Source: Halomonas sp. A11-A (lineage in GTDB: Bacteria > Pseudomonadota > Gammaproteobacteria > Pseudomonadales > Halomonadaceae). From it: a stretch of DNA of 64,000 nt. The first letter of the stretch is position 1. Each line of letters opens with the position of its first letter. This document shows, in pieces, positions 45,139-64,000 of the stretch. The notes under the pieces were generated by a model. That model did no database searches. It was not told the DNA's origin and saw nothing but the letters and a program-made list of their open reading frames with translations. The stretch is taken from the NCBI RefSeq assembly GCF_003182195.1, contig NZ_QGTM01000001.1, positions 372,001-436,000 of the forward strand, in the 5' to 3' direction. Position numbers and translations under genes: made by a program.

Positions 45139-45153
45139 GCCTCTTCGCCTCCT

Positions 45154-46086: not shown

Positions 46087-46227
46087 GTCACGGCTTCCAT
46101 GCAGAGTGTAGGGGACAAGGGCAGCACATCATGATGGGCGTCAAGCCGAGAGGCGACCACCGGCGGCGGCCTCATGTTAGACTAAAGTCCAAACCTTCTC
46201 TCACCCTCCATCCCACAAGAGGCGTCG

Positions 46228-47412: not shown

Positions 47413-49583
47413 CGCCCCGCCCCGCCCGCCCCGCTCCCCAGGCCATCCTGCTGGTGCCCACCGGCGAGGGCGCCGGCCTCACCTCGGCCTGCCTGGGCCT
47501 GATCCAGGCGCTGGACACCATCGGCCTCAAGGCCGGCTTCCTCAAGCCGCTGCGCCAGGACGAGCTCAACGGCTCGGGGCCGGACCGCTCCTGCGCCCTG
47601 GTCAACAGTACCCTGGGGCTGCGCCCGCCGGCGCCGATCCCCCAGTCCGAGATGGAGCGCCTGCTGCGCCAGGACCGCCTCGACGTGCTGATGGAGCAGG
47701 TGGTGGAGCTCCAGGAGGCCGCCCTCGAGGCCTTCCCGGACGGCGCCCCGGAGCTGCTGGTAATGGAGGGGCTGGTGCCGACGCGCCACGCCAGCTACGC
47801 CGCCCAGGTCAATGCCCAGCTGGCCCACGCGCTGAACGCCCGGATCATCCTAGTGGGCAGCGGCGACCTGGCCGATCCCCAGGCGCTGGCCGAGCAGCTC
47901 GACATGCACGCCCGGGCCTTCGGCGGGGTCGGCTCGGCCCGCACCCTGGGCTGCATCCTGATGCGCATGCACAACATGCCCGGGGGCGAGGACGCCAGTG
48001 GATTGGCCCCCGGTACCGCCGCGCCGGCCCTGGAGGAGGCCCTGCTCGCCGAGCTGCGCCGTCACTCCCCCGCGCTCGCCACCGAACGCTTCCACCTGAT
48101 CGGCATGGTGCCCTACGCCCCGGCGCTCTCCGCCCCGCGGGTGCTGGACGTGGCCCGCGCCCTGGGAGCCCGCTTCCTCAACGAGGGGGAACCCGAGCGG
48201 CGGGTGCTTTCCACCAGCCTCTGCGCGCGTAGCGCCTCCAACGCCCTGCACATCTTCAAGCCCGGCGGGCTGGTGGTGGCCTCCGGCGATCGCGACGACG
48301 TGGTGCTGGCCTCGGCCCTGGCCACCATGAACGGCGTGCCCCTGGCCGGCGTCCTGCTCACCAACGGCTTCATCCCCGGCGACAACATGATCGAGATGTG
48401 CCGCCCGGCGCTGAAGACCGGACTGCCGGTGATCAGCGTCGACACCGACAGCTTCACCACCGCCAAGAACCTCGGCCAGATGGGCAACGACATCCCCATC
48501 GACGACTTCGAGCGCGCCGAGCGGGTGGCCAACTTCGTGGCCGCCCATATCGATCTGCAGTGGCTCAAGGACCACCTGAGCCGCGGCTATACCCGCCGCC
48601 TCTCCCCCTCCGCCTTCCGCCACCAGCTGGTCAAGCTGGCCCAGCAGGCGGACCGGCGTATCATCCTGCCCGAGGGCAGCGAGCCGCGCACCGTGGAGGC
48701 CGCCGCCATCTGCCAGCGTCGCGGCATCGCCCGCTGTGTGCTGCTGGGCAAGCGCGAGGAGATCATGGAGGTGGCCCGCCAGCGCGGCATCGAGCTGCCC
48801 AAGGGGCTCGAGATCATCGACCCGGACAGCATCCGGGCGCGCTACGTGGCGCCCATGGTGGAGAGGCGCGCCGGCAAGGTGAACGCACTCACCGCCGAGG
48901 CCCAGCTCCAGGATAACGTGGTGCTCGGCACCATGATGCTGGCCCTGGACGAGGTGGATGGGCTGGTCTCCGGCGCCATCCACACCACCGCCAACACCGT
49001 GCGCCCGGCCTTCCAGCTGATCAAGACCGCCCCGGGCTACCGCCAGGTCTCCTCGATCTTCTTCATGCTGCTGCCCGAGCAGGTGGTGGTCTACGGCGAC
49101 TGCGCGGTGAATCCCGACCCGGATGCCGAGACCCTGGCGGAGATCGCCATCCAGAGCGCCCGCTCCGCCCAGGCCTTCGGCATCGAGCCGCGGGTGGCAA
49201 TGATCAGCTACTCCACCGGGGAGTCCGGCTCCGGCGCCGACGTGGAGAAGGTGCGTCAGGCCACCCGCCTGGCCCGGGAACGGGCACCCGAACTGCTGAT
49301 CGACGGCCCGCTGCAGTACGACGCCGCCGCCATCGAGAGCGTCGGCCGCCAGAAGGCGCCGGACTCCCCGGTGGCCGGGCGCGCCACGGTGTTCGTCTTC
49401 CCCGACCTCAACACCGGCAACACCACCTACAAGGCGGTGCAGCGCAGCGCCCGGGTGGTCAGCGTCGGCCCCATGCTGCAGGGCCTCAATAAGCCGGTGA
49501 ACGACCTCTCCCGCGGGGCGCTGGTCGATGACATCGTCTACACCATCGCCCTGACCGCCATCCAGGCCGCCCAGGGCGGCTGA
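47409..49583 (+). CDS. pta: Phosphate acetyltransferase (long form)
   Basis: Pta transfers acetyl between CoA and phosphate, working with AckA. The 724-aa product is the long class: an N-terminal AAA/BioD-like domain ([17 protein letters not shown]), a middle DRTGG domain (about residues 225-340) and the C-terminal catalytic domain with [20 protein letters not shown] and [13 protein letters not shown]. The ATG at 47409 overlaps ackA (ATGA). The longer frame from 47337 is in another phase of ackA and rejected. Confidence 0.97.
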
Positions 49584-49691
49584 GGCGGGCCCGGGGCGCG
49601 TCGCCACGGCTGGCCCCGGCCCGGCAATGGGAATATGCTTGAGGTACCCGCGGCCTTGCCGCGCAAGGCTGGAACCAACACGGAGAACGAG

Positions 49692-50846
49692 ATGCCCGGC
49701 CTGCTTCCCGACGTCGACCCCGATGGTCTGCTCGAATACTCGGTGGTCTATACCGACCGCGCCCTGAACCACATGTCCTCCCGCTTCCAGGAGGTGATGC
49801 GCGATATCTCCGGCCAGCTCAAGCGGGTCTACCACGCCCACAGTGCGGTGATCGTGCCCGGCAGCGGCACCTTCGGCATGGAGGCGGTGGCGCGCCAGTT
49901 CGCCAAGGAGCGGCGCTGCCTGGTGATCCGCAACGGCTGGTTCAGCTACCGCTGGAGCCAGATCCTCGAGATGGGCCGCATCCCGGCCGATATCAACGTG
50001 CTCAAGGCGCGCCGCCTCGACGAGAGCAGCCCCGCCTCGCCCTTCGCCCCGGCGCCCATCGAGGAGGTGATCGAGGCGATCCGCGACCAGCAGCCGGACA
50101 TCATCTTCATGCCCCACGTGGAGACCGCCGCGGGGATCATCCTGCCCGACGACTACATCCGCCAGGTGGCCGATGCCATCCATCAGGAGGGTGGCCTGCT
50201 GGTGCTCGACTGCATCGCCTCCGGCGCCATCTGGGTCGACATGCAGGACCTCGGCGTCGATGTGCTGGTCAGCGCCCCCCAGAAGGGCTGGAGCGCCTCG
50301 CCCTGCTGCGCCATGGTGATGCTCTCGCGCCAGGCCCGCGAGGTCATCGACGACACCACCAGCTCGAGCTTCGCCTGCGACCTCAAGAAGTGGCTCACCA
50401 TCATGGAAACCTACGAGGGCGGCGGCCACGCCTACCACGCCACCCTGCCCACCGACGGGCTGGTGACGCTTCGCGACGTGATGGTCGAGATAGAGGCCTA
50501 TGGCCTGGAGAAGGTGCGCGACGAGCAGCAGGCGCTGGGCGACGGCGTCCGCGAGCTGCTGGCAGAGTTCGGCTATCGGAGCGTGGCGGCCCCCGGCTTC
50601 GAGGCCCCCGGCGTGGTGGTCAGCTACACCGATGACGCCGGCCTGGTCGGCAAGTTTGCCGAGGCGGGCCTGCAGGTGGCCGGCGGCGTGCAGCTGATGT
50701 GCGACGAGGGCGAGGGCTTCCTGACCTTCCGCATCGGCCTGTTCGGCCTGGAGAAGCTCCACGACCGCGAGCGCAGCCTGGCCCACCTGCGCGGTGCCCT
50801 CGAGACCATCGCCCGGGCGCAACCGGTACCCCCCGGCGAGGCCTGA
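49692..50846 (+). CDS. Class V aminotransferase (alanine-glyoxylate/serine-glyoxylate type)
   Basis: The 384-aa PLP enzyme has the substrate-side SGTFGMEAV near residue 59, the PLP-contacting DCIASGAIWVD and the Schiff-base Lys in SAPQKGWSASPCC. The group transfers amino groups between alanine, serine or related donors and glyoxylate or pyruvate; the true pair is unknown. It follows pta by 108 bases. The start at 49692 has GGAG; an earlier in-frame ATG at 49635 lies in the leader. Confidence 0.85.
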   Translation: MPGLLPDVDPDGLLEYSVVYTDRALNHMSSRFQEVMRDISGQLKRVYHAHSAVIVPGSGTFGMEAVARQFAKERRCLVIRNGWFSYRWSQILEMGRIPADINVLKARRLDESSPASPFAPAPIEEVIEAIRDQQPDIIFMPHVETAAGIILPDDYIRQVADAIHQEGGLLVLDCIASGAIWVDMQDLGVDVLVSAPQKGWSASPCCAMVMLSRQAREVIDDTTSSSFACDLKKWLTIMETYEGGGHAYHATLPTDGLVTLRDVMVEIEAYGLEKVRDEQQALGDGVRELLAEFGYRSVAAPGFEAPGVVVSYTDDAGLVGKFAEAGLQVAGGVQLMCDEGEGFLTFRIGLFGLEKLHDRERSLAHLRGALETIARAQPVPPGEA

Positions 50847-50882
50847 TAGGGCCAGCCTGCAACGACAAAGCCCACCATAAGA

Positions 50883-50910
50883 AGAGGGGCGGCCAACTGG
50901 CCGCCCCTCT
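50883..50910. terminator. Bidirectional terminator
   Basis: AGAGGGGCGGCC-AACT-GGCCGCCCCTCT is a perfect 12-bp stem with a 4-base loop between the convergent aminotransferase and CBS-domain genes. Confidence 0.7.
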
Positions 50911-50970
50911 CGTGTTTGCGTAGCTCGTATTTGCGTAGTTCGTGCTTGTTTAGCTCGTGCTTGCGTTGCG
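50911..50970. repeat. Four tandem 15-bp repeats
   Basis: Four consecutive 15-base units close to CGTGCTTGCGTAGCT differ at two to five positions each. They lie between the terminator and the CBS gene stop, outside any supported gene. Likely a variable minisatellite. Confidence 0.8.
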
Positions 50971-50990
50971 CGCCGGAGCCGCGCCGAGCC

Positions 50991-51674
50991 TCAGAGGCTG
51001 CCGACGCCGCGCGGCACGAAGCCGAGGTTGTTGTCGACCTCCTTGACGCCCGCGGTATTCTCGGCGGCCACCTGCACGGCCATCTTCTCCTGCTGGTTCT
51101 CGACCAGGCCCCACAGCTGCACCTTGCCGTCGGAGACCATGACGTTGATCCGGTCGACCAGCACGCCGGTGTTGGCGTCGACCTCCTTGAGGATGGCCTC
51201 GCGGATCTCGCGGTCATCCGCGGTCACGCTGGCCTCGGTGGCCACCACGGAGAAGCCGCGCAGCAGGTTGGAGCGGCTGACGATGCCCACCAGCTTGCCC
51301 TCCTGAACCACCGGCACCCGCTTGATGTGATGCTTCTCGAGCAGCCGCGAGATCTTGTGCAGCGGCATGTCGCCTGCGATGGTGATCGGGTCCTTGGTCA
51401 TGATCTCGTGGGCACGGCGACCGTGGGACTTCACGTAATCGGCGGCGTCGTGGCCGGCGAACAGCTTCAGCCACCAGGACTTGCGGCGCGCGGTGTCGTT
51501 CTCCACCCGGCGCATCAGGTCACCCTCGCTGACGATGCCGAGCACCTTGCCACCATCATCCACGACGGGGACCGCGCTGATGCCGTGCTCCAGCAGCAGG
51601 CTGGCGATCTCGCGCACCTCGCTGTCCGGCGACACGGTGACGACGTTCTGGGTCATGACATCTGCAGCTTGCAT
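50991..51674 (-). CDS. CBS-domain pair with C-terminal BON domain
   Basis: The 227-aa cytosolic protein has two CBS domains (about residues 5-60, GIVSEGDLMRR, and 90-145, GIVSRSNLLRG) that form a nucleotide-sensing Bateman module, and a C-terminal BON domain (about 150-220) with LWGLVENQQEK. Such proteins may sense adenylates or bind membranes. Partner unknown. It is monocistronic. Confidence 0.9.
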   Translation of the reverse strand: MQAADVMTQNVVTVSPDSEVREIASLLLEHGISAVPVVDDGGKVLGIVSEGDLMRRVENDTARRKSWWLKLFAGHDAADYVKSHGRRAHEIMTKDPITIAGDMPLHKISRLLEKHHIKRVPVVQEGKLVGIVSRSNLLRGFSVVATEASVTADDREIREAILKEVDANTGVLVDRINVMVSDGKVQLWGLVENQQEKMAVQVAAENTAGVKEVDNNLGFVPRGVGSL

Positions 51675-51786
51675 CGGGCGTTCTCCACGGATTTATGGGA
51701 ATACACCCTGAAGATAGCAACTTGCCGGCGGCGACGCATTGACCGGGGCCGGGTTTGCTGGACGCCGTTTCAACCCTTGCCCCGGT

Positions 51787-53352
51787 TCAGTCTGCCTGGC
51801 CCGCCCCCTCGGCATGGACCCGCTCCACGTCGACGATCCGCGAACGGCTCATCACTACCTTCCAGCGCTGCAGGGTCGGCGGCCGGTCGCCCTGCACCTC
51901 GCGAATCACAAGGTTGATCAGATGGCGCTTCTCCACCTCCTCGCGCACCACCTGCCCCTCCTCCAGCCGGTAGACCCGGTGGCTGCCCTTGTCCATCAGC
52001 CGCGCCAGCGGCGAGAGGTCCAGGGTCAGGGTCTCGCGGGTGTGCTCGTAGCCGCTGAGGAAGCGCGTCGGTGACATCCGCGAGCGGGAGCGATAGTGCA
52101 GCACCACCTCCTCGCGCTGGGCCACGTTACGCTTGCGTACCCGCTGGATCTCCTCGTCCAGCTTGAGGAAACGCTGATAGTCGAACCACTCGAGCTGGTG
52201 GCCCACCGTCACGTTGCGGGTGGGGTCCAGGTACTGGCGCCGCCACTTGGGCCGTCCCCGGCGCAGGAGGCGCCACAGGGTGTTGCGCAGGTCGTCCTTG
52301 AACACCTCGCGCAGGGCATAGATCACCGCCATGGCCAGCACGAAGAGCGCTGTGATATCGGACAGGGCGTCACGCACCCGCAAGAGCCCCAGCGAGACGA
52401 ACACCATCACCACCGCGGTGGCCAGCGCCTTGACCGCCTTCTGCTCCCCCCCGCCGAGCTCCTGGGTCTTCTGCTTGAGGGTCACCGGGTACTCGATCAG
52501 CCGGCGCAGCAGGCGCATCTTGTTGGACATCCGCGTCGGGTCCCGGGTCACCCGCTCGGAGTTGTACTCCTGGGCCTCGCGGTACGCCCCCTCGTCCCGG
52601 CAGATCGTGATCAGGCGCTCGCGGATCTGCCGGAAGCGCGGGCCGCGCGGCAGGCTGGCCACCAGCGCCAGCAGGCGCTGCTCGGTGAACCAGGAGAGAT
52701 AGTTGTCGATGGTGACGTAGTAGCGGCTGAGGCTCTCCTCGGCGGGCTCCTGGCGACGCAGCCGCTTGAGGATCCCGGTGGCAAGCTCGGCGTGCTCCTC
52801 CAGCCGCGTCTCCAGGGAGGCCTCCTCCTTCTGCCCCTCGCGCTCCTTCGCCTGGCCGCCGGCGGGCTTGTGCGTGTCGTTGGCGGCCTGGGCGCTCGGC
52901 GTGCCGGGTGCGGGCCTCTCCCTGGCAGCCGGGGCGCTCTCCTTGCCGCTCGCCCCCTTCTCCTTGCCGACAGCACCCTTCTCCTTGCCGGCGGCGGCCT
53001 TCTCGGCCCGGCGCACCCGACGGGCGGCGTCCAGCAGCGGCTGGTTGGAGCCCTCGAGGGCCACCACGTACTGGTAGGCGTAGAGGCTCATCCCTAGGCG
53101 GTACTGCGCCGGGTCGAGGCGCCCCCGTTCAGCCAGCCGGCTGAGCACCAGCGGCAGCCGATAGCGGTCGCTGTAGTAGGTGCGCTTGACGTGGATCGCC
53201 GCGTGGTAGAAGGCCTCCTCGGCGAGCACCTGGGGACCGAGCCCCAGCTCCCCGGGCACGAACAGGTAGAGATCCAGCTGGTGGGAGGTCTCCTCCTGCA
53301 GCACCCGGGAGATGCGCAGGGAGAGCGCATCCGCGCGATCCACGCTGATCAT
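51787..53352 (-). CDS. Unrecognised two-helix membrane protein coupled to an MscS-family channel
   Basis: The 521-aa product has a long soluble N-terminal half, two hydrophobic helices near residues 310-350 (ALATAVVMVFVSLGLLR and SDITALFVLAMAVIYAL) and a soluble C-terminal part rich in Arg/Glu. Residues 117-178 are a low-complexity Lys/Ala/Gly/Glu insert with repeats of GKEKGA. No named family is recognised. Its ATG overlaps the stop of the upstream MscS-type channel gene by 4 bases, so the two are made together; a regulatory subunit of the channel is one possibility. Confidence 0.7.
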   Translation of the reverse strand: MISVDRADALSLRISRVLQEETSHQLDLYLFVPGELGLGPQVLAEEAFYHAAIHVKRTYYSDRYRLPLVLSRLAERGRLDPAQYRLGMSLYAYQYVVALEGSNQPLLDAARRVRRAEKAAAGKEKGAVGKEKGASGKESAPAARERPAPGTPSAQAANDTHKPAGGQAKEREGQKEEASLETRLEEHAELATGILKRLRRQEPAEESLSRYYVTIDNYLSWFTEQRLLALVASLPRGPRFRQIRERLITICRDEGAYREAQEYNSERVTRDPTRMSNKMRLLRRLIEYPVTLKQKTQELGGGEQKAVKALATAVVMVFVSLGLLRVRDALSDITALFVLAMAVIYALREVFKDDLRNTLWRLLRRGRPKWRRQYLDPTRNVTVGHQLEWFDYQRFLKLDEEIQRVRKRNVAQREEVVLHYRSRSRMSPTRFLSGYEHTRETLTLDLSPLARLMDKGSHRVYRLEEGQVVREEVEKRHLINLVIREVQGDRPPTLQRWKVVMSRSRIVDVERVHAEGAGQAD

Positions 53353-55691
53353 TGGCCGGGATCCGGTGAGGCACCGCGGGGGTTGGTATCGCCCTCGGGG
53401 TCAGCCACCAGGGCCTCACCGGGCTCGCGCCCGGCGGCGTCGCGAAGGGCACCGGCGGACTCGGTGGCCCGGGCGATGCCCTCGTCGCTGCCGTCCAGGC
53501 GGCCGCCGCCGCGGCCCTGCATGCTGATGTTGAGGCGCGGCATAGCCAGGTCGAGGCCCTGTTCCTCCATGCGCTGCTTGAGCAACAGATTGAAGGCGCG
53601 GGCCACGTCCCACTGCATCTCGGGGGCGGTGCGAAAGCGCATGCGCAGCACCGGGCAGCCCTCCTCGAAGGCCTGGATGCCCTGCATCTCCAGCGGCGAC
53701 CAGATGTAGTGGCGCATCATCGGATCCTGGCGCAGCGCCTGGGCGGTCTCCTGCATCAGGCTGATGGCATCGTCGATCTTCATCTCATGGGGGATGCGGA
53801 TGCGCATCAGGGCGATGCCAAACTGGCGCGACATGTTGTGGATCGAGGAGATGCGGCTGAAGGTGACGATATGGAGCACCCCGTCCAGATCGCGCAGGCG
53901 CACGGTGCGCAGGGCCAGCCCCTCCACCGTGCCCATGTGGCCGTTGATCTCGACGAAATCGTCCACCGCCAGCGCGTCCTCGATGATGATGAAGATGCCG
54001 GTGATCAGGTCCTGCACCAGGGTCTGGGCGCCGAAGCCGATGGCCAGGCCGATCACACCGGCACCGGCCAGCAGCGGGGTGACGTTCACGCCGAGGTTGG
54101 CCAGGCCGGCGATGGCGGCAATGATCACGATGGTGGTGAAGATGATGTTGCGGATCATCGGGGTGATGGTCTGGACCCGGGCCTGGTTGACCCGCCGCCC
54201 GCGGGTGCGCGCCGGACTGGTCATGGCGCGCTGGATGGCGGTATCGGCGAAGATCCACGCCAGCCAGGCCAGCAGCACGGTGAAGGCCATGGCCAGCAAC
54301 GCCTGGCCGATACGCGCACTGGCCACCCCCTGCTGGCCGATACCGATCAGCGACCCGCCCCACACCTGGGTGGAGAGCTCGGCGAAGGCCAGCCAGGTAG
54401 CGGCGTGGGCCAGCACATAGCCGAAGCGCTCCAGGCGCTGGCGATACTGGCTGATCCGGCGGCGCTGGTAGCGCTTGCTGCGCCGCTCCCCGTGGCGCCG
54501 CAGCAGCCCGGTGACCACCAGCGCCAGCACCAGCAGCGAGGCGGAGATGATCGAGCGGGCCAGCGCCGTGCCCACGTCGCCGCCGGTGACGATGATCGCC
54601 ACCAGCGAGCCGCCCACCAGCAGCAGCGCGGGCACGTGCCACAGGTTGCCGACCACGGCCACCACGCTGGCACTGCCGCTGTGGTCGCGGCGCTCGCGCC
54701 AGGGGCGGTTTCTGATGATGTGCTGGATGGGGCGCTGGAAGCGCAGGATGAAGCGAATGCTGAGCAGCGCGGCCAGCATGTTGGCCAGCACCGAGAGCAG
54801 GCCGGCCAGCTCGTCGCCGATCAGGTCGGTCAGGCGTCCGGAGTTGAAGGCATCGCCCAGCGCGATCAGCGCGCCGATCACGAACAGCGGCCGCAGCGCG
54901 CGCTGCTGCAGGATCTGCACCGCCACGAAGCGATGCCCGCGGGTAAACACCGAGACGAAGGTCTCCACCACCACCGAGAGGGTACGACCACACAGGGCGA
55001 TATAGGCCACCACCAGGGCCATGGTGCGACCGGAGCTCTCCGGGATCAGCTGCGCCATGCCCAGCACCAGGAAGAAGGCCAGCGCCCAGGGCAGCATGCG
55101 GCGCAGGAAATGCACGGTGAGCAGCCAGGCCCGCGGGTCCCGAGGCAGGTCCAGCGGCCAGCCGCGGCGGCGCGCCAGCAGGCGCCCCAGGGCGATCAGG
55201 ATCACCAGCAGGCCGACCCAGATGCCCAACAGCACGGCGCCCTCCACCAGGAAACGCATCAGCTCGGCATTGCCGGTGCCGGTCACCAGGCCGCTGAGAT
55301 CCTCCCAGCCCTGCTCCAGCTGCTCCTGCCACTGGTCGATGGGCGAGTGCCCCGCTTCGGCCTGGTCGCCCAGGTCGCTCAGGGTCTCGGCCAGGGCCCC
55401 GAGCAGCCCCTGACGCGGCGCCAGGGTCGCCTCCTCGACCGCCCCGCCGTGAACCACCTGCAGCTCGCGCAGCCCCTCCAGCAGCTGGCCGCGACGCTCG
55501 GCGTCCTCCAGGGTGGCGATCACCTGCTCGAGGGATTCCTGGAACGCCTGGGGGTCATGCTCGGCGGCGGCCTCCCCGCCGCCAACCAGCCCCGGCAGGC
55601 CGAGCTGCTGAGCCTGAACGGGCGGCGCCAGCAGGAGCAGCAGCAGCCAGGCCAGACAGGTGAAGAGGCTTCGGCGCAGTGGTAGGGACAT
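53349..55691 (-). CDS. Large MscS-family mechanosensitive channel
   Basis: The 780-aa protein has a signal peptide (cut near PPVQAQ), a periplasmic coiled region (about 40-150), around ten helices and the MscS core: pore helix segment AGAGVIGLAIGFGAQTLVQD, then DFVEINGHMGTVEGL and a beta/alpha C-terminal vestibule. It resembles YbiO/MscK-type channels that vent solutes under hypoosmotic shock. The start at 55691 gives the signal peptide; the frame upstream to 56300 is antisense to the amidoligase gene and rejected. The last 60 residues are a disordered Gly/Glu tail. Confidence 0.9.
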   Translation of the reverse strand: MSLPLRRSLFTCLAWLLLLLLAPPVQAQQLGLPGLVGGGEAAAEHDPQAFQESLEQVIATLEDAERRGQLLEGLRELQVVHGGAVEEATLAPRQGLLGALAETLSDLGDQAEAGHSPIDQWQEQLEQGWEDLSGLVTGTGNAELMRFLVEGAVLLGIWVGLLVILIALGRLLARRRGWPLDLPRDPRAWLLTVHFLRRMLPWALAFFLVLGMAQLIPESSGRTMALVVAYIALCGRTLSVVVETFVSVFTRGHRFVAVQILQQRALRPLFVIGALIALGDAFNSGRLTDLIGDELAGLLSVLANMLAALLSIRFILRFQRPIQHIIRNRPWRERRDHSGSASVVAVVGNLWHVPALLLVGGSLVAIIVTGGDVGTALARSIISASLLVLALVVTGLLRRHGERRSKRYQRRRISQYRQRLERFGYVLAHAATWLAFAELSTQVWGGSLIGIGQQGVASARIGQALLAMAFTVLLAWLAWIFADTAIQRAMTSPARTRGRRVNQARVQTITPMIRNIIFTTIVIIAAIAGLANLGVNVTPLLAGAGVIGLAIGFGAQTLVQDLITGIFIIIEDALAVDDFVEINGHMGTVEGLALRTVRLRDLDGVLHIVTFSRISSIHNMSRQFGIALMRIRIPHEMKIDDAISLMQETAQALRQDPMMRHYIWSPLEMQGIQAFEEGCPVLRMRFRTAPEMQWDVARAFNLLLKQRMEEQGLDLAMPRLNISMQGRGGGRLDGSDEGIARATESAGALRDAAGREPGEALVADPEGDTNPRGASPDPGQ

Positions 55692-55775
55692 CGTTTCTCC
55701 GTGTTCGGTCGGCGACGCTGGCCGCTGATATGTTAGGCTCCTCATGAGCCCATCGGTCACGCACAGGATGCCGCC

Positions 55776-56783
55776 ATGACGCCCCTCCCGCCACCCGAGC
55801 CCCGCAATCCCGATGGCGAGACCCGCCGCGTCGGGGTCGAGATCGAGTTCGCCGGGCTGCCGCCCCGCGACACCGCCGAGCTGGTGCGCGAGCTGTTCGG
55901 CGGCGAACTGACGGTCGTGAGCCCCCACCGTCTCAAGGTTCAGGGAACCCGCTGGGGCGATTTCGTCATCGAGCTCGATACCCAGTATGCCCATCCCGAC
56001 AGCGAGGTGCTCGACGCCCGGCCGAAGGACGACACCGAGTGGGAGCGCCAGCGCCACCAGATGCGCGTGGACTTCCACACCCGCACCCGGGAGCTGATCG
56101 GCGATGTGGTCACGGGCCTGGTGCCCACCGAGATCGTCTGCCCGCCAGTGCCCTGGGACGAGCTCGAGGAGCTCGATGCCCTCTTCGACGCCCTGCGCCA
56201 GCACGGCGCCAAGGGCACCGACGCAAGCCTCCTGTACGGCTTCGGCCTGCACCTCAACCCGGAGGTGGCGAGCCTCTCGGTAGAGAGCCTGCTGGACCAC
56301 CTACGCGCCTACCTGCTCACCGCCGAGTGGCTGCGCGAGCAGATCGACGTGGACATCACTCGCGAGGTGCTGCCCCACGCCAACCCCTTCCCCAAGCCCT
56401 ATGCGCTGAAGGTGCTCGACCCCCAGTATGCGCCGGATCTCGACACCCTGATCGGCGACTATCTCGAGGACAACCCGACCCGCAACCGCGAGCTCGACAT
56501 GACCCCGCTGTTCGCCCACCTGCGGCCGGACTTTCCCCACGAGCTGTTCCACAACAAGCTGGTCAAGGCCCGCCCGACCTTCCACTACCGGCTGCCCGAT
56601 GCGCGGCTCTCCGAGCCCGGCTGGGGCTCGGTGAAGGAGTGGAATCGCTGGCTCGAGGTGGAGAAGCTGGCCGCCGACAAGGCGCTGCTGGCCAAGCGCA
56701 GCGCCGGCTACGTGGCCAAGCACACCCGCTCGCTGCTGGCCAGGCTGTGGCTGCGCATGCGCGGCTGGGCGGGCACCTCGTGA
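55776..56783 (+). CDS. Amidoligase family protein (glutamine-synthetase-like fold)
   Basis: The 335-aa product matches the amidoligase group (COOH-NH2 ligases). Visible marks: GVEIEFAGL near the start (metal-binding Glu pair), GDFVIELDTQY, VPTEIVCPP and LYGFGLHLNPEV. Such enzymes use ATP to form an amide between a carboxyl and an amine, and are found with class I glutaminases in small operons predicted to modify peptides or cell-wall components. The next gene is exactly such a glutaminase, overlapping by 4 bases. Substrate unknown. Confidence 0.85.
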   Translation: MTPLPPPEPRNPDGETRRVGVEIEFAGLPPRDTAELVRELFGGELTVVSPHRLKVQGTRWGDFVIELDTQYAHPDSEVLDARPKDDTEWERQRHQMRVDFHTRTRELIGDVVTGLVPTEIVCPPVPWDELEELDALFDALRQHGAKGTDASLLYGFGLHLNPEVASLSVESLLDHLRAYLLTAEWLREQIDVDITREVLPHANPFPKPYALKVLDPQYAPDLDTLIGDYLEDNPTRNRELDMTPLFAHLRPDFPHELFHNKLVKARPTFHYRLPDARLSEPGWGSVKEWNRWLEVEKLAADKALLAKRSAGYVAKHTRSLLARLWLRMRGWAGTS

Positions 56784-57472
56784 GCGATCCCCGCCCCCTG
56801 ATCGGCATCACCACCTCTGACGACAAGAGCCAGATTGCCTGGCTCTTCGACTGGTTCGCGGTGTGGCGCCACGGCGGTCGCCCGCGACGCCTGTCGCCCT
56901 CGCGGCCCATGCCTGAGCACCTCGACGGCCTGATCATCGGCGGCGGCGATGACATCCAGGCCCACCTCTACAACGCCGAGGTGCAGCTCGACGTGCGGGT
57001 CGACCCCCAGCGCGACGAGCTGGAGCTGGAGCTGCTCGAGCGCTTCATCCCCGAGGGCACCCCGGTGCTCGGCATCTGCCGCGGCGCCCAGCTGATCAAC
57101 GTCTACCGTGGCGGCACCCTGGACCCGGACATCTACACCACCCACGAGGGCCTCAAGCGCCGGCGCACGGTGCTGCCGCGCAAGACGGTGGATATCGTCG
57201 GCGCCAGCAAGCTCCACCGCCTGCTGGGGGTGAGCTGGTGCCGCATCAACAGCCTGCACCATCAGGCGGTGCAGGAGACCGGCGAGGGGATCGAGATCGT
57301 CGCCCGCGACCGCGAGGGCCTGGTCCAGGGCATCGAATCCCGCGACCACGACTTCCTGATCGGCGTGCAGTGGCACCCGGAGTGGCTGATCTTCAACCGT
57401 CCCCAGCAGCGCCTGATCCGCGCCCTGGTCAACGCCGCCCGGCGCCAGCAGACGGCCCAGGCGGAGGCCTGA
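56780..57472 (+). CDS. Class I glutamine amidotransferase-like / gamma-glutamyl hydrolase (PuuD-like)
   Basis: The 230-aa product has the class I glutaminase triad: nucleophile Cys in LGICRGAQLINVYRGG and His/Glu in QWHPEW. It belongs to the peptidase C26/PuuD group that hydrolyses gamma-glutamyl bonds or supplies ammonia. The GTG start at 56780 overlaps the amidoligase stop (GTGA), so both are translated together. I infer that the pair attaches and removes, or edits, an amide-linked group on an unknown substrate. Confidence 0.88.
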   Translation: MSDPRPLIGITTSDDKSQIAWLFDWFAVWRHGGRPRRLSPSRPMPEHLDGLIIGGGDDIQAHLYNAEVQLDVRVDPQRDELELELLERFIPEGTPVLGICRGAQLINVYRGGTLDPDIYTTHEGLKRRRTVLPRKTVDIVGASKLHRLLGVSWCRINSLHHQAVQETGEGIEIVARDREGLVQGIESRDHDFLIGVQWHPEWLIFNRPQQRLIRALVNAARRQQTAQAEA

Positions 57473-57481
57473 ACGCGACGG

Positions 57482-57501
57482 CGGCCACCCGAGGGTGGCC
57501 G
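57482..57501. terminator. Bidirectional hairpin
   Basis: CGGCCACCC-GA-GGGTGGCCG lies between the convergent glutaminase and tpx genes. Short loop, no T-run. Confidence 0.5.
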
Positions 57502-57536
57502 TCTGCATGGATCGGGCGATCCGGTTCCCTCACCCG

Positions 57537-58037
57537 CTAGCCGAGGGACGCGAGCGCCGCCTCGTAGTCCGGCTCGTCCTTGATCTCGTCGACCAGCTGG
57601 CTGTGGATCACGCGATCGTTCTCGTCGAGCACCACCACGCCCCTCGCGCAGAGGCCGGCCAGCGGTCCGCTGCTGATATCGACGCCCCAGTCGCGCCGGA
57701 ATTCCGGATGGCGGAAGGTAGAAAGGGTCGCCACCTTCTCCAGCCCCTCGGCACCGCAGAAGCGCTGGGCGGCAAAGGGCAGGTCGGCGGACACCACCAG
57801 CACCACGGTGTTATCCAGCTGCGACGCCAGCTCGTTGAAGCGGCGGGTGGAGGTAGCGCAGGTCGGCGTATCGACGCTGGGAATAATATTGAGCACCTTG
57901 CGCTTACCGGCGTGGTCGGCAAGGGTCACATCCGCCAGCTCGGCATTGGTCAGGGTCAGCGCGGGCGCCGTATCGCCCACCGCGGGAAAGCTGCCCGCAA
58001 CGTCCACCGGCTCACCGCCGAGTTTCACCTGGCTCAT
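57537..58037 (-). CDS. tpx: Thiol peroxidase
   Basis: Tpx is a two-Cys peroxiredoxin that reduces alkyl and hydrogen peroxides in the periplasm or cytosol with thioredoxin. The 166-aa product has the peroxidatic Cys60 in [14 protein letters not shown] and the resolving Cys94 in [10 protein letters not shown], the normal spacing. Start at 58037 follows GGAG. It is a single-gene unit. Confidence 0.96.
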
Positions 58038-58107
58038 GGCACTACTCCTCTGTCGTCTGGGGAAGACTCGAGCCTAGCCTCTCCGGCCGCGAACGGCCAG
58101 CCACGAC

Positions 58108-58683
58108 TCAACGCTTGCCGTCACGCAGCCTGGCCAGGGCCGAGGCTAGCGCCGCGGTGCCCAGCTCGCGCATCGCCGCCACGTTGCGCTCGGGGATCGC
58201 CTCGGGGGCCGGATAGTGCTCAAGCGCCCGCTCGAGGCCCGCTTCGCGCAGCAGGTGCAGCATCGGGAAGGGCGAGCGGTTGGTGAAGTTGGCAGCGTCC
58301 TCCTCCTCGGCCCCTTCGAAGCAGTAGTCGGGGTGGAAGCTCGCCAGCTGGTAGGTGCCCTCATACCCCTGGTCGTCCAGCAGCGCCTCGGCCACGGCCA
58401 GGAAGTCGAGGTAGTCGTCGAACGCCTCGAGCCCTGGAGTGAGCACCAGCAGCGTGGTCTCGATGGCGGGCGTCTCGTCGAGGCGCTCGCACTCGGCCAC
58501 CAGGGTCAGCAGCGCGCGCTCCCAGTCGCCGGCCTCCACCGCCACGTAGCGGATGGTGTCGCGGGCCACCTCGCGGCCGGCGAAGGGGCAGACGTTGCGG
58601 GCGACCACGAAGGTCTCGACCCAGGCGCGGGTGGCGGCCAGGGCCTGTGACTGGTTCGGGGTGGGCTCGGTGGGTGCGGACAT
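58108..58683 (-). CDS. DUF1415 family protein
   Basis: The 191-aa soluble protein matches DUF1415: WVETFVVARNVCPFAGRE at the start, the YEGTYQLASFHPDYCFEG centre and NRSPFPMLHLLREAGLE. Conserved Cys and His residues suggest a metal or catalytic site, but function is unknown. The start at 58683 is chosen to match the family; the open frame extends to 59031 antisense to the next gene. It is divergent from the aldo/keto reductase. Confidence 0.88.
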   Translation of the reverse strand: MSAPTEPTPNQSQALAATRAWVETFVVARNVCPFAGREVARDTIRYVAVEAGDWERALLTLVAECERLDETPAIETTLLVLTPGLEAFDDYLDFLAVAEALLDDQGYEGTYQLASFHPDYCFEGAEEEDAANFTNRSPFPMLHLLREAGLERALEHYPAPEAIPERNVAAMRELGTAALASALARLRDGKR

Positions 58684-58768
58684 GGGGACTCTCGTGGCAG
58701 CAGGGAAGACGGTCTGGGGAAAGCGGTCTGCTATTGTGGCAGAAACCCGACCGCCGCGAGTAGCCACG

Positions 58769-59665
58769 ATGTCCGCCATCTCGTCACCCACTGTCACCCT
58801 GCCCGCCACCGCCCATGAGCCTGCGGTCGAGCTTCCCGCCATCGGCCAGGGCACCTGGCACATGGGCGAGGGGCTCGCCCCGCGCAGCGACGAGGTGCGC
58901 GCCCTGCAGCTCGGCCTGGAGCGTGGCCTCACCCTGATCGACACCGCCGAGATGTATGCCGACGGCGGCGCCGAGGAGGTGGTGGGCGAGGCGCTGCTGG
59001 GCCAGCGCGACGAGGCCTTCCTGGTCTCCAAGGTCTACCCCTGGAACGCCGGACGCGACTCGGCCATCGCCGCCTGCGAGGCGAGCCTGAAACGCCTGGG
59101 GACCGACCACCTGGACCTCTATCTGCTGCACTGGCCGGGTAGCGTACCGCTGGAGGAGACCCTGGAGGCCTTCGAGCGGCTGCGCCAGGCGGGCAAGATC
59201 CGCCGCTTCGGCGTCTCCAACTTCGACGTGGACGAGATGGCCGCGCTACATGCCCTGCCCGGCGGCAAGGCGTGCGCGGTCAACCAGGTGCTCTACCACC
59301 TCGGCTCCCGGGGCATCGAACACGCCCTGCTGCCCTGGCAGCGCGCCCGCGGCATCCCCACCATGGCCTACTGCCCGCTGGCCCAGGCCGGCGAGCTGCG
59401 CCGGGAGCTGCTCACCCACCCCGAGGTGCTCGAGATCGCCTCGTCGCTCGGCATCACCCCCACCCAGCTGCTGCTGGCCTGGGCGATCCGGCCACGGGGC
59501 GAGGGCGCGCCCCGCGACGTGCTCGCCATCCCCAAGGCCACCCGCCTCGAGCACGTGGAGCAGAACGCCAGGGCCCTCGAGATCTCGCTGACCGAGGAAG
59601 CGCTCGCCCGCCTCGACGCCGCCTTCCCCGCGCCGGGACGCAAGACGCCGTTGGATATCGTGTAG
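58769..59665 (+). CDS. Aldo/keto reductase
   Basis: The 298-aa cytosolic NAD(P)H enzyme has the AKR tetrad: Asp and Tyr in DTAEMYADGG, Lys in VSKVYPW and His in LYLLHWPGS, plus the NADP-binding IPKATRLEHVEQN. It belongs to the YeaE-like group and likely reduces methylglyoxal or related carbonyls. Start at 58769; the longer frame from 58553 overlaps the divergent gene. Confidence 0.92.
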   Translation: MSAISSPTVTLPATAHEPAVELPAIGQGTWHMGEGLAPRSDEVRALQLGLERGLTLIDTAEMYADGGAEEVVGEALLGQRDEAFLVSKVYPWNAGRDSAIAACEASLKRLGTDHLDLYLLHWPGSVPLEETLEAFERLRQAGKIRRFGVSNFDVDEMAALHALPGGKACAVNQVLYHLGSRGIEHALLPWQRARGIPTMAYCPLAQAGELRRELLTHPEVLEIASSLGITPTQLLLAWAIRPRGEGAPRDVLAIPKATRLEHVEQNARALEISLTEEALARLDAAFPAPGRKTPLDIV

Positions 59666-59669
59666 AGAA

Positions 59670-60362
59670 TCACCGGTTTCCTCGTCGAGAGGCCAGGCGA
59701 TCGGCCATCCTGGTCGGCTCCGGCAGCTTGGTGCGCCCGAGGCAGTGGATCACCCAGTCGAGCGCCGTGGCAAGAGAGAGACGATGCCCCGGCGAGACGA
59801 AGAGCGGCTTCACGCCCACCCGCGAGCGCAGCACCGCACCGATCACCTCGTCGTCGGGGCCGTCGATCAGCGGCGTCCAGTCACCCCGCGCGGGCCCCGG
59901 CTCGCCGTGGCGCCCGCAGAGCCGCGACTTGGCCACGCCGATGGTGGGCAGGTCGAGCCACAGCCCCAGGTGGGAGGCCACCCCGAGCCGGCGCGGATGG
60001 GCGATGCCCTGGCCGTCCACCATGACGAGATCGGGCATCACGCCGAGCCGCTCGAAGGCCGCCAGCGCCGCCGGCACCTCGCGAAAGGAGAGCAGCCCGG
60101 GGATATAGGGCATCCGCGTGGGCTCGCGGTGCACCACCTCCTCGACCACATCGAATACCCCCGGCCCCCGCGGCGGCCAGGCCAGCACCACCACTGCCGC
60201 CCGGGTGATCGCCCCGCCCTGCTCGAAGCCGATATCCACCCCGGCGATGCACCGCACCTCGCCCAGGCGATCCTCGCGCGCTACCCGCCCGGCCAGGCGC
60301 CGCTGCAGGGCGATGGCCTCGCGGGGCGAGAGATTCCAGTCGTGGAGGGGAGTGAGTGGCAT
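59670..60362 (-). CDS. nfi: Endonuclease V
   Basis: Endonuclease V nicks DNA one base 3' of deoxyinosine (or cleaves inosine-containing RNA). The 230-aa product has the catalytic AGVDIGF Asp, [31 protein letters not shown] and GVAKSRLCG motifs. Its stop is 4 bases from the stop of the aldo/keto reductase on the other strand, so no separate terminator is visible. Confidence 0.95.
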
Positions 60363-60394
60363 AAGGGCTCCTGTTTCACGGCGTAAGGAGCGCT

Positions 60395-60485
60395 GGGGAC
60401 AAGCCGTAGAGGAGGTCCTACGCCAGGGATGGCGTCGGTAGCGCCCAGGGAGGGGTTCACAGCGCCTCCTCAGAGGCTTGTCGCC
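60395..60485. repeat. Palindromic intergenic element upstream of sbcD
   Basis: A left arm GGGGACAAGCC...AGGAGG (60395-60415) and a right arm CCTCCTC...GGCTTGTCGCC (60465-60485) form an imperfect 21-base inverted repeat; between them CGCCA-GGGA-TGGCG (60421-60434) makes a smaller hairpin. The 91-base unit lies in the divergent nfi/sbcD gap. Probably a dispersed intergenic repeat; a regulatory RNA structure is the alternative. Confidence 0.55.
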
Positions 60486-60589
60486 AGATCAGCTCCGGAG
60501 GGATGTCTCAGCGGGCTCCTGAACCGCCGCTTCCAGTGGCGTAGACTATCGCCTTTCGATGCCCGCCAGGGAAGGGAGCCCCGCCGATC

Positions 60590-61885
60590 ATGTTGACGCT
60601 GATTCATACCGCCGACTGGCACCTTGGCCAGACGTTCCACGGCCAGGAGCGCCACGCCGAGCACCGCGCCTTTCTCGCCTGGCTGCTCGACACCCTGGCC
60701 GCGCGCCAGGCCGACGCCCTGCTGGTGGCCGGCGACATCTTCGACGTGGTCAACCCCTCGCTTGCCGCCCAGGAGCTGCTCTACGACTTCATCGTCTCCG
60801 CCCACGAGCGGCTGCCGCGGCTGGATATCGTACTGATCGCCGGCAACCACGACAGCGGCAACCGCATAGAGCTGCCCGCCCCGCTGATGCGCCGGCTGCG
60901 CACCCACGCCCTGGGGCGGGTGAGCTGGCTCGACGACGGCCGCCTCGATGCCGAGCGCCTGCTGGTGCCGCTCACCGACGCCGCCGGCGAGACCCTCGCC
61001 TGGTGCCTGGCGCTGCCCTTCCTGCGCCCCGCCGAAGTGACCGGCGCGGCGCTGGCAAGCCGCGACGACGACAGCGGGCCCGGCGACGCCGCCGACGCGA
61101 ATGACTACGTGGCCGGTATCACCCGGGTGCATCGCCAACTGATCGCCGCCGCCGAGGCGCGCCGCGAACCGGGCCAGGCACTGGTGGCCATGAGCCACGC
61201 ACACCTGCACGGTGCGGCGGTCTCCGAGGCCAGCGAGCGACCCATCGTGATCGGCGGCGAGGAATCGATCTCCGCCGCCCTCTTTCCCCCGGCCATCGCC
61301 TACGTGGCACTGGGCCACCTGCACCGCGCCCAGCAGGTGGGCGAGGCGCGCATCCGCTACAGCGGCAGCCCCCTGCCGCTGGACTTCAGCGAGGTGGCCT
61401 ACCCCCACCAGGTGGTGGAGGTGACCCTGGACGGCGAGTCGCTGGCCGAGGCCACGGCGATCCCGGTACCGCGCCCCGTGGCCATGCATCGTATTGGCCC
61501 CGGCCCCATCGATAGCGTGCTGGCCGAGCTCGAGGCCCTGGAGGACGACCCGGCGCTGCCGAAGGAGCGCTGGCCCTGGCTGGAGGTGCGGGTCGCGCTC
61601 GAGGCCCCCCTCCCCGACCTGCGCGCCCGGGTGGAGACCGCACTCAAGGACAAGGCGGTGCGCCTGCTGCGCCTGGAGCGCCGCCTGCCCACCGTCGAGG
61701 GAGACGCCGCCGCGGCCCGGGTCGACCTGGAGAGCCTGGGCCCGCGCAGGCTCTTCGAGCGCACCTGGGAGGCGCGCTGGGGCGAGCCGCCGGGCGACGA
61801 CGTGCTGGCCGACTTCGACCGCCTGCGCCAGGAGGTGCTGGACGCCGGCGACAGCGAGGCGAGTGGCCGGGAGGCGCAGCCATGA
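60590..61885 (+). CDS. sbcD: SbcCD nuclease subunit D (Mre11-type)
   Basis: SbcD is the phosphoesterase subunit of the SbcCD complex that cuts DNA hairpins and protein-blocked ends. The 431-aa product has the metallophosphoesterase motifs TADWHLGQ, VAGDIFD, IAGNHDS, MSHAHLHG and LGHLHRAQQ, and the C-terminal capping domain. Start at 60590 has GGGAG upstream. It overlaps sbcC by 4 bases (ATGA). Confidence 0.96.
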   Translation: MLTLIHTADWHLGQTFHGQERHAEHRAFLAWLLDTLAARQADALLVAGDIFDVVNPSLAAQELLYDFIVSAHERLPRLDIVLIAGNHDSGNRIELPAPLMRRLRTHALGRVSWLDDGRLDAERLLVPLTDAAGETLAWCLALPFLRPAEVTGAALASRDDDSGPGDAADANDYVAGITRVHRQLIAAAEARREPGQALVAMSHAHLHGAAVSEASERPIVIGGEESISAALFPPAIAYVALGHLHRAQQVGEARIRYSGSPLPLDFSEVAYPHQVVEVTLDGESLAEATAIPVPRPVAMHRIGPGPIDSVLAELEALEDDPALPKERWPWLEVRVALEAPLPDLRARVETALKDKAVRLLRLERRLPTVEGDAAAARVDLESLGPRRLFERTWEARWGEPPGDDVLADFDRLRQEVLDAGDSEASGREAQP

Positions 61886-64000
61886 AGATCCTTGCCCTGC
61901 GCCTGGAGAACCTGGCCTCGCTGCCGGGGCCCCTCGAGCTCGACTTCACCGCCTCGCCGCTCAGCGACGCCGGCCTGTTCGCCATCACCGGCCCCACCGG
62001 CGCCGGCAAGAGCACCCTTCTCGACGCCCTGTGCCTGGCGCTTTACGGCAGCACCCCGCGGCTGCGCCAGGCGCCGGCCCGTGACAGCCAGATCGATGAC
62101 ACCCCGGACTCCCGCCTCACCACCAGCGATGCCCGCACCCTGCTGCGCCGCGGCACCGCCAGCGGCTACGCCGAGGTGGATTTCCTGGGCCGCGACGGAC
62201 GCCGCTACCGCGCCCGCTGGGCGGTGCGCCGCGCCCGGGAGAAGGCCACCGGCCGCCTGCAGGCGGCGGAGCAATCGCTCACCGACCTCGACGACGAGCG
62301 CCTGCTGACCGCCCAGAAGCGCGAGTTCGAGCGCCTGCTGCCGGAGCGACTGGGGCTCACCTTCGACCAGTTCACCCGCGCCGTGCTGCTGGCCCAGAGC
62401 GAGTTCGCCGCCTTCCTCCAGGCCGACGACAACGCCCGAAGCGACCTGCTGGAGCGCCTCACCGGCACCGCCGAGTACTCCGAGATCTCCATGGCCGCCT
62501 ACCGCCGCGCCAGCGAGGCGCGAAAGACGGTGGAGGCCCTGGAGGCGAAGCTTGCCGACGATCTGCCCGCCGAGCCCGAAGCCCGTGCAGAGTTCGAGCG
62601 TGCCGCCGAGGCCACCCAGCAAGCCCTCACTCACCTGCAGACCCAGGCAGAGTCGCTCCAGGCGACGCGCCGCTGGCACGAGGAGGACGACCGGCGCCAC
62701 GCGGCCCATGCCGAGGGCCTGGCGCAACAGCAGGCCGCCGAGGCGACCTGGCAGGGGCTCGCCGAGGCCCGCCGCGACCGCGACTGGCGCCGGCTGATCG
62801 CCCCCCGGCGGCACGCCCTGGCCCGCCAGGCGGCCCTGCCCGCCGAGCTCGACGCCCTGGCGGCAACCCGGCGCGAGACCGACGCGGCACTGGCCACCGC
62901 CGAGGCCGAGCACAAGGCCGCCGGGCGCGCCCTGGCCGAGGCCGAGCAGGCCCTCACGCACGCCGGCGAGGCACGCCAGCGCGCCGAACCGGCCCTTCAT
63001 GAGGCCCGGGCGCACCAGCACGCCCTCAGCCAGCGCCAGCGCGAGCTGGCCGAGTGCGAGACCCAGCTCACCCAAGCCCGGGCGCAGGCCGCCAAGCTGA
63101 GTGACGACCACCAGCGCGAGCAGGCCGCCCAGCAGAAGCGCCATGAGCAGCAGCGTCAGTGGCAGGCGGCCCTGGCCGAGCTGGTGGGTGAGCACTCACA
63201 CCTGGCGGCCGCCCGCCAGGCCGGCCAGCAGGCCCACGATCGGGCCGCCGCTCGCACCCTCGCCCTGGAGGCGCTGGCCAGCCGCTGGCAGGAATACCAG
63301 CGTGCCGAAGAGGCGTGCCGCCACCAGGCTCACCAGCAAACGACCGACCGCGAGCGGCGCGAGCGCCTGCTGGCCGAGGGGCAGACGGCTCGCCAGGCCC
63401 TCGACCGGGCCCAGGGCCACCTGGAGAGCGTCACCGCCCTGATCGAGCGCAGCCGCGCCGTACGCAGCGAGAGCGTGGCCCGGCTGCGCGATGGCCTGCG
63501 GGAAGGCGAGCCCTGTCCCGTCTGCGGTGGGCAGGACCACCCCTGGCGCCATCAGCCACCGGCCACCCCCGAGGCGGCTCAGCTCGCCGCCCAGGAGGCC
63601 GAGGAGGGGCGCCAGCTCGAGGCCGCCCGGCAGGCCCGCGACGATGCCCAGGCCCGGCGCGACACCCTGCTGGGCGAGTACCGCGCCCTGGAGGCCGCCC
63701 TTGCCCAGGGCGAGCGGACGCTGGCAGGCGCCGAAGCGCGCCTGGCGGAGGCCCGCACGGGCCTGAGGGAGCACCCGCTCCACGACGAGCTCGACGCCGT
63801 GGAAGCGCCGGCCCGGGCGGCCTGGCTGCAGACCCGACGCCACGAGAGCGAGGCGAGCCGCCGGCAGGCCCAGCAGAACCTCGAAGCACTGGCCCGGGCC
63901 GAGGCCGAGCTCGCCCCCCTGGAGGAGTCGCTGCGCCAGGGTGAGCTGGCCCTCACTCGCCTGGAGGGCGATAAGGCCAGGGCCGACCGCGACCTGGCGG
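61882..64000 (+). CDS. sbcC: SbcCD ATPase subunit C (Rad50-type), 5' part
   Basis: The first 706 codons of an SMC-like ATPase; the end is beyond the window. Walker A is GPTGAGKSTLLDALCLALYG near residue 37, a Q-loop fits LLAQSEFAAFLQ, long Ala/Gln/Glu-rich coiled coils follow, and the zinc hook CPVCGGQDHPW is at about residue 545. The usual length is 1000-1200 aa, so the C-terminal coil, signature motif and Walker B are missing only because the window ends. It is co-translated with sbcD. Confidence 0.95.
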   Translation, partial: MKILALRLENLASLPGPLELDFTASPLSDAGLFAITGPTGAGKSTLLDALCLALYGSTPRLRQAPARDSQIDDTPDSRLTTSDARTLLRRGTASGYAEVDFLGRDGRRYRARWAVRRAREKATGRLQAAEQSLTDLDDERLLTAQKREFERLLPERLGLTFDQFTRAVLLAQSEFAAFLQADDNARSDLLERLTGTAEYSEISMAAYRRASEARKTVEALEAKLADDLPAEPEARAEFERAAEATQQALTHLQTQAESLQATRRWHEEDDRRHAAHAEGLAQQQAAEATWQGLAEARRDRDWRRLIAPRRHALARQAALPAELDALAATRRETDAALATAEAEHKAAGRALAEAEQALTHAGEARQRAEPALHEARAHQHALSQRQRELAECETQLTQARAQAAKLSDDHQREQAAQQKRHEQQRQWQAALAELVGEHSHLAAARQAGQQAHDRAAARTLALEALASRWQEYQRAEEACRHQAHQQTTDRERRERLLAEGQTARQALDRAQGHLESVTALIERSRAVRSESVARLRDGLREGEPCPVCGGQDHPWRHQPPATPEAAQLAAQEAEEGRQLEAARQARDDAQARRDTLLGEYRALEAALAQGERTLAGAEARLAEARTGLREHPLHDELDAVEAPARAAWLQTRRHESEASRRQAQQNLEALARAEAELAPLEESLRQGELALTRLEGDKARADRDLA

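Follow-up and report, generated by a model that had tools for sequence, protein, structure and literature searches.

The window, a stretch of 64,000 nucleotides from Halomonas sp. A11-A, holds a locus in which an amidoligase gene (ALI) is followed on the same strand by a gene for a protein with a PuuD-like class I glutamine amidotransferase fold (GAT) (Table 1). The initial annotation had placed two overlapping genes at 55776-57472; these coordinates are right, and the genes share 4 nt, an overlap through which their translation is probably coupled. The GTG start of GAT at 56780 was picked by homology and codon usage, and the mechanical ORF list gives a longer frame from 56039. ALI, the single PF12224 match in its own genome, starts 84 bp from a divergent MscS-type channel gene. 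The 521-aa protein encoded behind the channel gene has no Pfam, NCBIfam or PADLOC match; by eye it contains hydrophobic stretches, and it adjoins MscS in many Halomonas loci. Thirty loci resemble the window (L032-L061; 29 from Halomonas and one from Vreelandella), with 71-93% identity in the best segment.

Table 1. Features of the ALI-GAT locus and its neighbours (window coordinates)
Feature	Position	Strand	Remarks
521-aa protein gene	51787-53352	-	directly behind the MscS gene, with a 4-nt overlap
MscS-type channel gene, divergent	53349..55691	-	PF00924 and PF21088; neighbour, judged to lie outside the module
Amidoligase gene (ALI)	55776..56783	+	ATG start, 335 aa, Pfam PF12224
E22-x-E24 of ALI	55839..55847	+	putatively corresponds to E-x-E, the metal/ATP motif of GS
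H270-x-R272 of ALI	56583..56591	+	appears by eye to resemble GS 'RIExRxPD', with His replacing Glu
GAT gene, PuuD-like class I glutamine amidotransferase fold	56780..57472	+	GTG start, 230 aa, PF07722
ALI/GAT overlap GTGA, 4 nt	56780..56783	+	ALI stop with GAT start
Nucleophile Cys100 of GAT (GICRGAQ)	57077..57079	+	invariant in 52/52; role by homology
His199 and Glu201 of GAT (QWHPE), remaining triad	57374..57382	+	invariant in 52/52; role by homology
Redoxin-family gene	57537-58037	convergent	downstream of GAT

A scan of 55550-57650 returned no sigma-70 promoter site; within ALI it marked one terminator-like site, which lies on the minus strand, against an average of 0.4 in shuffled sequences. 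The GC-rich stem at 57480-57503, 3' of GAT, carries no terminator listing and its fold is not significant (z -1.39), and no RNA element reached the gathering score within 45000-64000. A defence system was also considered and rejected, as PADLOC gave no match.

ALI and GAT are a real, conserved two-gene module. PF12224 is found in 113 of 151 Halomonadaceae genomes, and the GAT profile, at 230 bits or more, picks out the same 113, this limit having been fixed after seeing a gap in the scores that extends down to 161 bits. Among the 38 family genomes lacking the ligase, two (G016 and G037) have C26 matches of 160-161 bits, which were kept out of the paired type. The two genes are adjacent on one strand in 112 of the 113 genomes, the window's own included, which argues that the pairing is not due to chance; in the remaining genome (G102) both lie at contig ends, at an assembly break. 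Across loci L001-L061, some of which may come from the same species, GAT is present in 60 of 61, the last contig stopping inside the ligase. Overlapping reading frames are found in 104 of 130 distinct pairs, 60 of them overlapping by exactly 4 nt, and the largest gap is 128 nt, with the starts, and hence the overlap lengths, chosen by script. These linkage counts derive from six-frame profile searches because, at several GC-rich loci, the gene caller had wrongly reported frames on the antisense strand. A natural ALI-GAT fusion was rejected in the five long frames inspected (L140-L144): three of the loci (L140, L143 and L144) hold two distinct genes, we took the long frame of L141 for an antisense artefact, and at L142 the gene caller had overlooked the pair. 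In L119 (G137), the ligase appears as two matches in a row, as from a frameshift or sequencing error.

The pair recurs well beyond the family, and the prospect of two genes unlinked in all relatives did not materialize. Within the window's class, 17 of 321 genomes sampled have PF12224 (the window's own included), as do 18 of 240 genomes of the class of G482, probably Alphaproteobacteria. Of the 67 PF12224 genomes outside Halomonadaceae, 59 carry the pair: 14 of 16 in the class sample, 12 of 16 newly seen in the phylum sample, 20 of 20 newly seen in the order of G352 and 13 of 15 newly seen in the class of G482. Three of the 67 (G547, G621 and G980) have solo ligases only, and five (G411, G349, G622, G683 and G999) have another PF12224 subfamily that the module profile misses at 60 bits. 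The loci of this other subfamily are L100 (G411), L116 (G349), L136 (G622), L191 (G999) and L096-L099 (G683), and BLAST found no GAT match in L100, L116 and L136. One genome, G397, has both a paired and a solo copy, and 11 plasmid records contain a ligase match, the seven inspected being three paired and four solo. In the ALI tree the eight solo ligases form one clade (support 0.998).

In this tree most Halomonadaceae ligases, including that of the window, cluster with ligases from the class of G482 (L087, L181, L182 and L184 compared), and most gammaproteobacterial ligases stand apart from them; L004 and L010, also of Halomonadaceae, fall in the VTT clade described below. An old lateral transfer is possible. 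A phage origin was rejected, since a tblastn search of 50,697 phage records with ALI (E 1e-3) gave no match. Among predicted viral proteins in BFVD, 11 match ALI in fold at E 0.001 or better (best E 4.8e-5) with 9-16% identity, and several of these are named amidoligases.

ALI matches PF12224 (Amidoligase_2) with 198.9 bits (cut-off 22; E 1.7e-58) over profile positions 1-244 of 245, and all 70 aligned relatives match this family at E 0.1 or better. It is the only Pfam family found in ALI; PF00120, the GS/PuuA family, gives no match at E 0.001. An AlphaFold2 model built with the 70 aligned relatives (mean pLDDT 92.4) superposes on human glutamine synthetase (GS; 9nlr) over 192 residues with an rmsd of 3.2 and a VIA-align Z of 12.2, and 160 of 810 chains reach Z 8 or more. 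The predicted fold is that of the GS catalytic domain, which bears out the GS-fold amidoligase of the initial annotation. In the matches listed, the GS ranges aligned to ALI begin at GS residue 98-139, facing model residue 1, and so the ALI model appears to have no counterpart of the N-terminal ~100 residues of GS, which we take to be the beta-grasp part. Foldseek gave no PDB match at E 0.001 or better, with a GS and YbdK ranking first, phmmer found no relative among PDB sequences at E up to 1, and 5h3w (ALI profile against PDB, E 0.0083) and weaker matches were taken as chance.

Seventeen residues are invariant in all 70 ALI sequences: R17, G20, E22, E24, D68, P117, E119, P124, A145, N161, R236, D241, P244, R266, H270, R272 and P274. 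We took E22, E24, D68, E119, N161, R236, D241, R266, H270 and R272 as the residues of metal/ATP type, and these acidic and basic residues, whose roles are presumed from their type and conservation, are intact throughout; the loss of metal or ATP-site residues, which the initial annotation had named as a refutation, was not seen. GS enzymes carry the motifs E-x-E, G-x-H-x-H and R-x-E-x-R-x-P-D. The invariant residues of ALI seem to suit these motifs in order and type, with H270 probably standing at the position of the GS Glu. A profile-profile alignment of ALI with GS is not significant (probability 0.5%, E 0.13), and its path, a hint at most, matches up, in order, the motifs E-x-E, G-x-H-x-N/H and R-N-R but leaves the H270-x-R272 columns unpaired with the last GS motif. 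The GS side of this alignment consisted of sequences from 19 of 30 GS loci, the 11 loci for which there was no sequence being left out.

GAT matches PF07722 (Peptidase_C26) with 149.1 bits (cut-off 20.5; E 2e-43) and PF00117 with 47 bits. Its AlphaFold2 model (pLDDT 95.0) superposes on PuuD (6vtv) over 223 residues with an rmsd of 1.9 and Z 30.5, and on SpuA and Lin1909, the latter a protein of unknown function, with Z 29.8 and 29.6, respectively. The amidotransferase domains of GMP, CTP, ADC and anthranilate synthases score Z 22.3 or less among the matches listed, and GatD is absent from the best 50 listed, an absence that excludes nothing. A Cys-His-Glu triad is present, its role assigned by homology, and C100, H199 and E201 together with R101 are invariant in the 52 paired GATs. 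The C-R-G nucleophile motif also occurs in five PuuD-like unpaired proteins, whereas three unpaired proteins of GATase type have C-L-G or C-Y-G. In a tree of C26 proteins the 52 paired GATs split from eight unpaired ones (support 0.71), the unpaired set comprising 8 of 11 sequences, with L232, L238 and L239 left out. Together, model and motif place GAT, as a predicted enzyme, with gamma-glutamyl hydrolases of the PuuD/SpuA type rather than with synthetase-coupled amidotransferases. The PuuD-like part of the original assignment thus stands, and 'glutaminase' has become uncertain.

Hydrolases of this type also keep similar company elsewhere. Nine C26 genes score above 100 bits in a 56-genome sample of the class, three adjoining an amidoligase and six of PuuD type. 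Of the five PuuD-type genes in genomes also searched for PF00120, four lie within ~3 kb of a GS paralogue and one is on another contig than the paralogue. A hydrolase of this type is thus a habitual partner of GS-fold ligases.

The closest known parallel is PuuA-PuuD (or SpuA), which likewise combines a GS-fold ligase with a Peptidase_C26 hydrolase. Given this same fold pairing and hydrolase family, the pair might be a second PuuA-PuuD, serving polyamine catabolism, a reading that we regard as highly improbable. The PuuA ligase belongs to PF00120, whereas that of the pair belongs to PF12224 and, from the matches listed, appears to lack the GS N-terminal part; and GAT scores 77.2 bits on the PuuD equivalog NF008471, far below its cut-off of 266. 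Furthermore, the same genome has a separate polyamine-type cluster at C1:232000-250303 (L199), ~180-190 kb from the pair, with a PuuD-like gene, an aminotransferase (presumably SpuC-like), a PuuC-like dehydrogenase, Pot-type transporter genes and two PF00120 GS paralogues. The PuuD-like protein of this cluster reaches 213 bits on the equivalog, also under 266, so the cut-off is strict when taken alone; it still lies well above GAT and falls in the other clade of the C26 tree. A scan of ten genes surrounding the pair found no Puu-pathway dehydrogenase, oxidase, transporter or PuuA, and polyamine-pathway genes do not flank it. Since the genome has a polyamine cluster with its own PuuD-like gene, the pair appears to be a paralogous system.

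The neighbourhood offers few further clues. No small conserved gene was seen beside the pair in the loci compared, in line with the initial annotation, which had noted no adjacent peptide precursor gene. The divergent MscS gene had been proposed as a possible partner. It is indeed present, and 57 of the 61 loci L001-L061 of the family have a homologous channel gene divergently adjoining the pair; in the other four it is missing within the DNA compared. No locus outside Halomonadaceae showed such a gene next to the pair, and a general partnership was therefore rejected; the gene's restriction to the family looks like lineage synteny. In six genomes of six families (L101, L106, L108, L109, L110 and L111) the pair is followed immediately, on its own strand, by a VTT gene detected with a VTT profile, one of the matches being weak and short. 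The ligases at these loci make up 6 of the 12 members of one clade (support 0.79), and the genomes 6 of the 59 paired ones outside the family; as the VTT linkage is confined to one ligase clade, it may reflect one event spread by transfer. VTT_dom is the commonest family (6) among 108 neighbour proteins from 30 loci, 26 of which lie outside the family, two of these being solo; GGDEF (5) and HATPase_c (4) follow, and CsbD, Ferritin and AI-2E_transport occur twice each. Apart from MscS and VTT the neighbourhood is variable. A CsbD gene adjoins the pair in L103 and L104. On Dinoroseobacter shibae pDSHI02 (L230) the pair lies within ~40 kb of stress-type genes (for HdeD, Dps, Pmp3, TrkG and a mechanosensitive channel) and of genes for Do protease and MgtC.

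These neighbours bear on a possible envelope module, in which the amide would be made and removed on a lipid-linked or cell-wall amine, with VTT (DedA-type) or MscS as membrane partner. The VTT genes of six families, the rank of VTT_dom among the neighbours and the channel gene of most family loci speak for such a module, yet VTT reaches only half of a single clade and a small part of the paired genomes, MscS does not follow the pair out of the family, and the other neighbours change from locus to locus; we consider this reading improbable. Of the envelope or osmotic role first suggested, the MscS partnership has fallen away and the downstream VTT gene is left as one independent hint. A membrane, envelope or stress role of the pair is thus only hinted at.

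We tentatively favour, at somewhat less than even confidence, a gamma-glutamyl-type ligase and its dedicated hydrolase acting as one two-enzyme module; both activities, the gamma-glutamyl chemistry and a common metabolite are presumed. ALI would activate a carboxylate with ATP to an acyl phosphate, as in glutamine synthetases, and join it to an amine, the most likely product being a gamma-glutamyl-type amide. GAT, with its Cys-His-Glu triad, would hydrolyse an amide of gamma-glutamyl type, either in that same metabolite or in a form of it that an unlinked enzyme has processed. Such a module would follow the PuuA-PuuD logic of ligating, processing and releasing, but its ligase family and hydrolase clade differ from those of PuuA-PuuD, and its substrate would differ too. 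The predicted folds, the invariant residues, the fixed gene order, the overlap and the co-inheritance of the two genes are all consistent with it. Against it, ligase and hydrolase acting alone, as the dearth of other widely conserved neighbours would have it, would run a futile cycle unless they are regulated or served by unlinked enzymes, and neither structure nor motif fixes glutamate as the acyl donor. The non-significant ALI-GS profile alignment, the Foldseek search without a PDB match at E 0.001 or better, the solo ligases and the C26 matches of G016 and G037 were also weighed against it.

Fixed order and overlap would equally fit a two-subunit glutamine-dependent amidotransferase, in which GAT would hydrolyse glutamine and pass ammonia to ALI for amidation of a carboxylate, on a metabolite or an envelope component, in the manner of MurT-GatD or CarAB. 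This is a serious possibility, to which we give a lesser share of our confidence. It accounts for the presence of both genes in the same 113 genomes out of 151, for the ligase-then-GAT order with 104 of 130 pairs overlapping and for the intact triad; a third gene is unnecessary, and the futile cycle is avoided. MurT-GatD, a peptidoglycan amidotransferase, resembles the pair in that its ligase gene adjoins a class I GAT gene, but in the available excerpts of its literature MurT resembles Mur ligases, whereas ALI resembles glutamine synthetase. In structure and nucleophile motif, however, GAT resembles gamma-glutamyl hydrolases more closely than it does GATases coupled to a synthetase, and the solo-ligase clade manages with no adjacent GAT, although free ammonia could serve there. 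To our knowledge, there is no GS-fold ligase with a GAT subunit, which also counts against an amidotransferase.

The ligase-hydrolase reading can be extended, doubtfully, to a proteobacterial writer-eraser cycle apart from Puu: ALI would attach a gamma-glutamyl-type group to an amine of the envelope or of a lipid carrier, or to a stress solute, GAT would detach it, VTT would move the modified molecule in one clade, and the ligases of another clade would act with no adjacent eraser.

Other systems share elements of this logic. The gamma-glutamyl-CDP-amidate hydrolase NF045546 is a relative that removes a gamma-glutamyl group, and GAT scores 43.5 bits against its cut-off of 250. That enzyme belongs to a capsule pathway with other partner genes. 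Amidoligase-GAT pairs were reportedly predicted by Iyer and colleagues in 2009, and PF13522, the family of the phage GATase mentioned below, is presumably of class II. In the available excerpts, six papers cite that work, four on phage or prophage amidoligase genes and two on other systems (PMC10580990, PMC11318856, PMC11253131, PMC10945688, PMC12096838, PMC12239564). OM43 phages carry both amidoligase and GATase genes, the same general pairing of a ligase with a GAT-type protein as in Halomonas, and in the excerpt available the phage GATase is assigned to PF13522 (PMC10580990). Phage amidoligases are at best distant from ALI, given the tblastn result and the low BFVD identities. The stress-linked RloA-RloB-RloC operon, as far as the available excerpt describes it, likewise joins a predicted ATP-dependent ligase-type protein to a hydrolase, but its products are an ATP-grasp protein, an aspartic peptidase and an inactive transglutaminase membrane protein, with folds unrelated to those of the pair (PMC12239564). 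In the titles and abstract openings of the open-access literature we found no experimentally characterised Amidoligase_2 enzyme, and in the open-access literature no expression or phenotype data for the pair.

The pair thus belongs to an already predicted, uncharacterised kind of system. Both genes are present or absent together, which makes the pair a clean system of two genes that can be tested in culturable halophiles; removing the catalytic cysteine of GAT may leave the product trapped and thereby identify the substrate.
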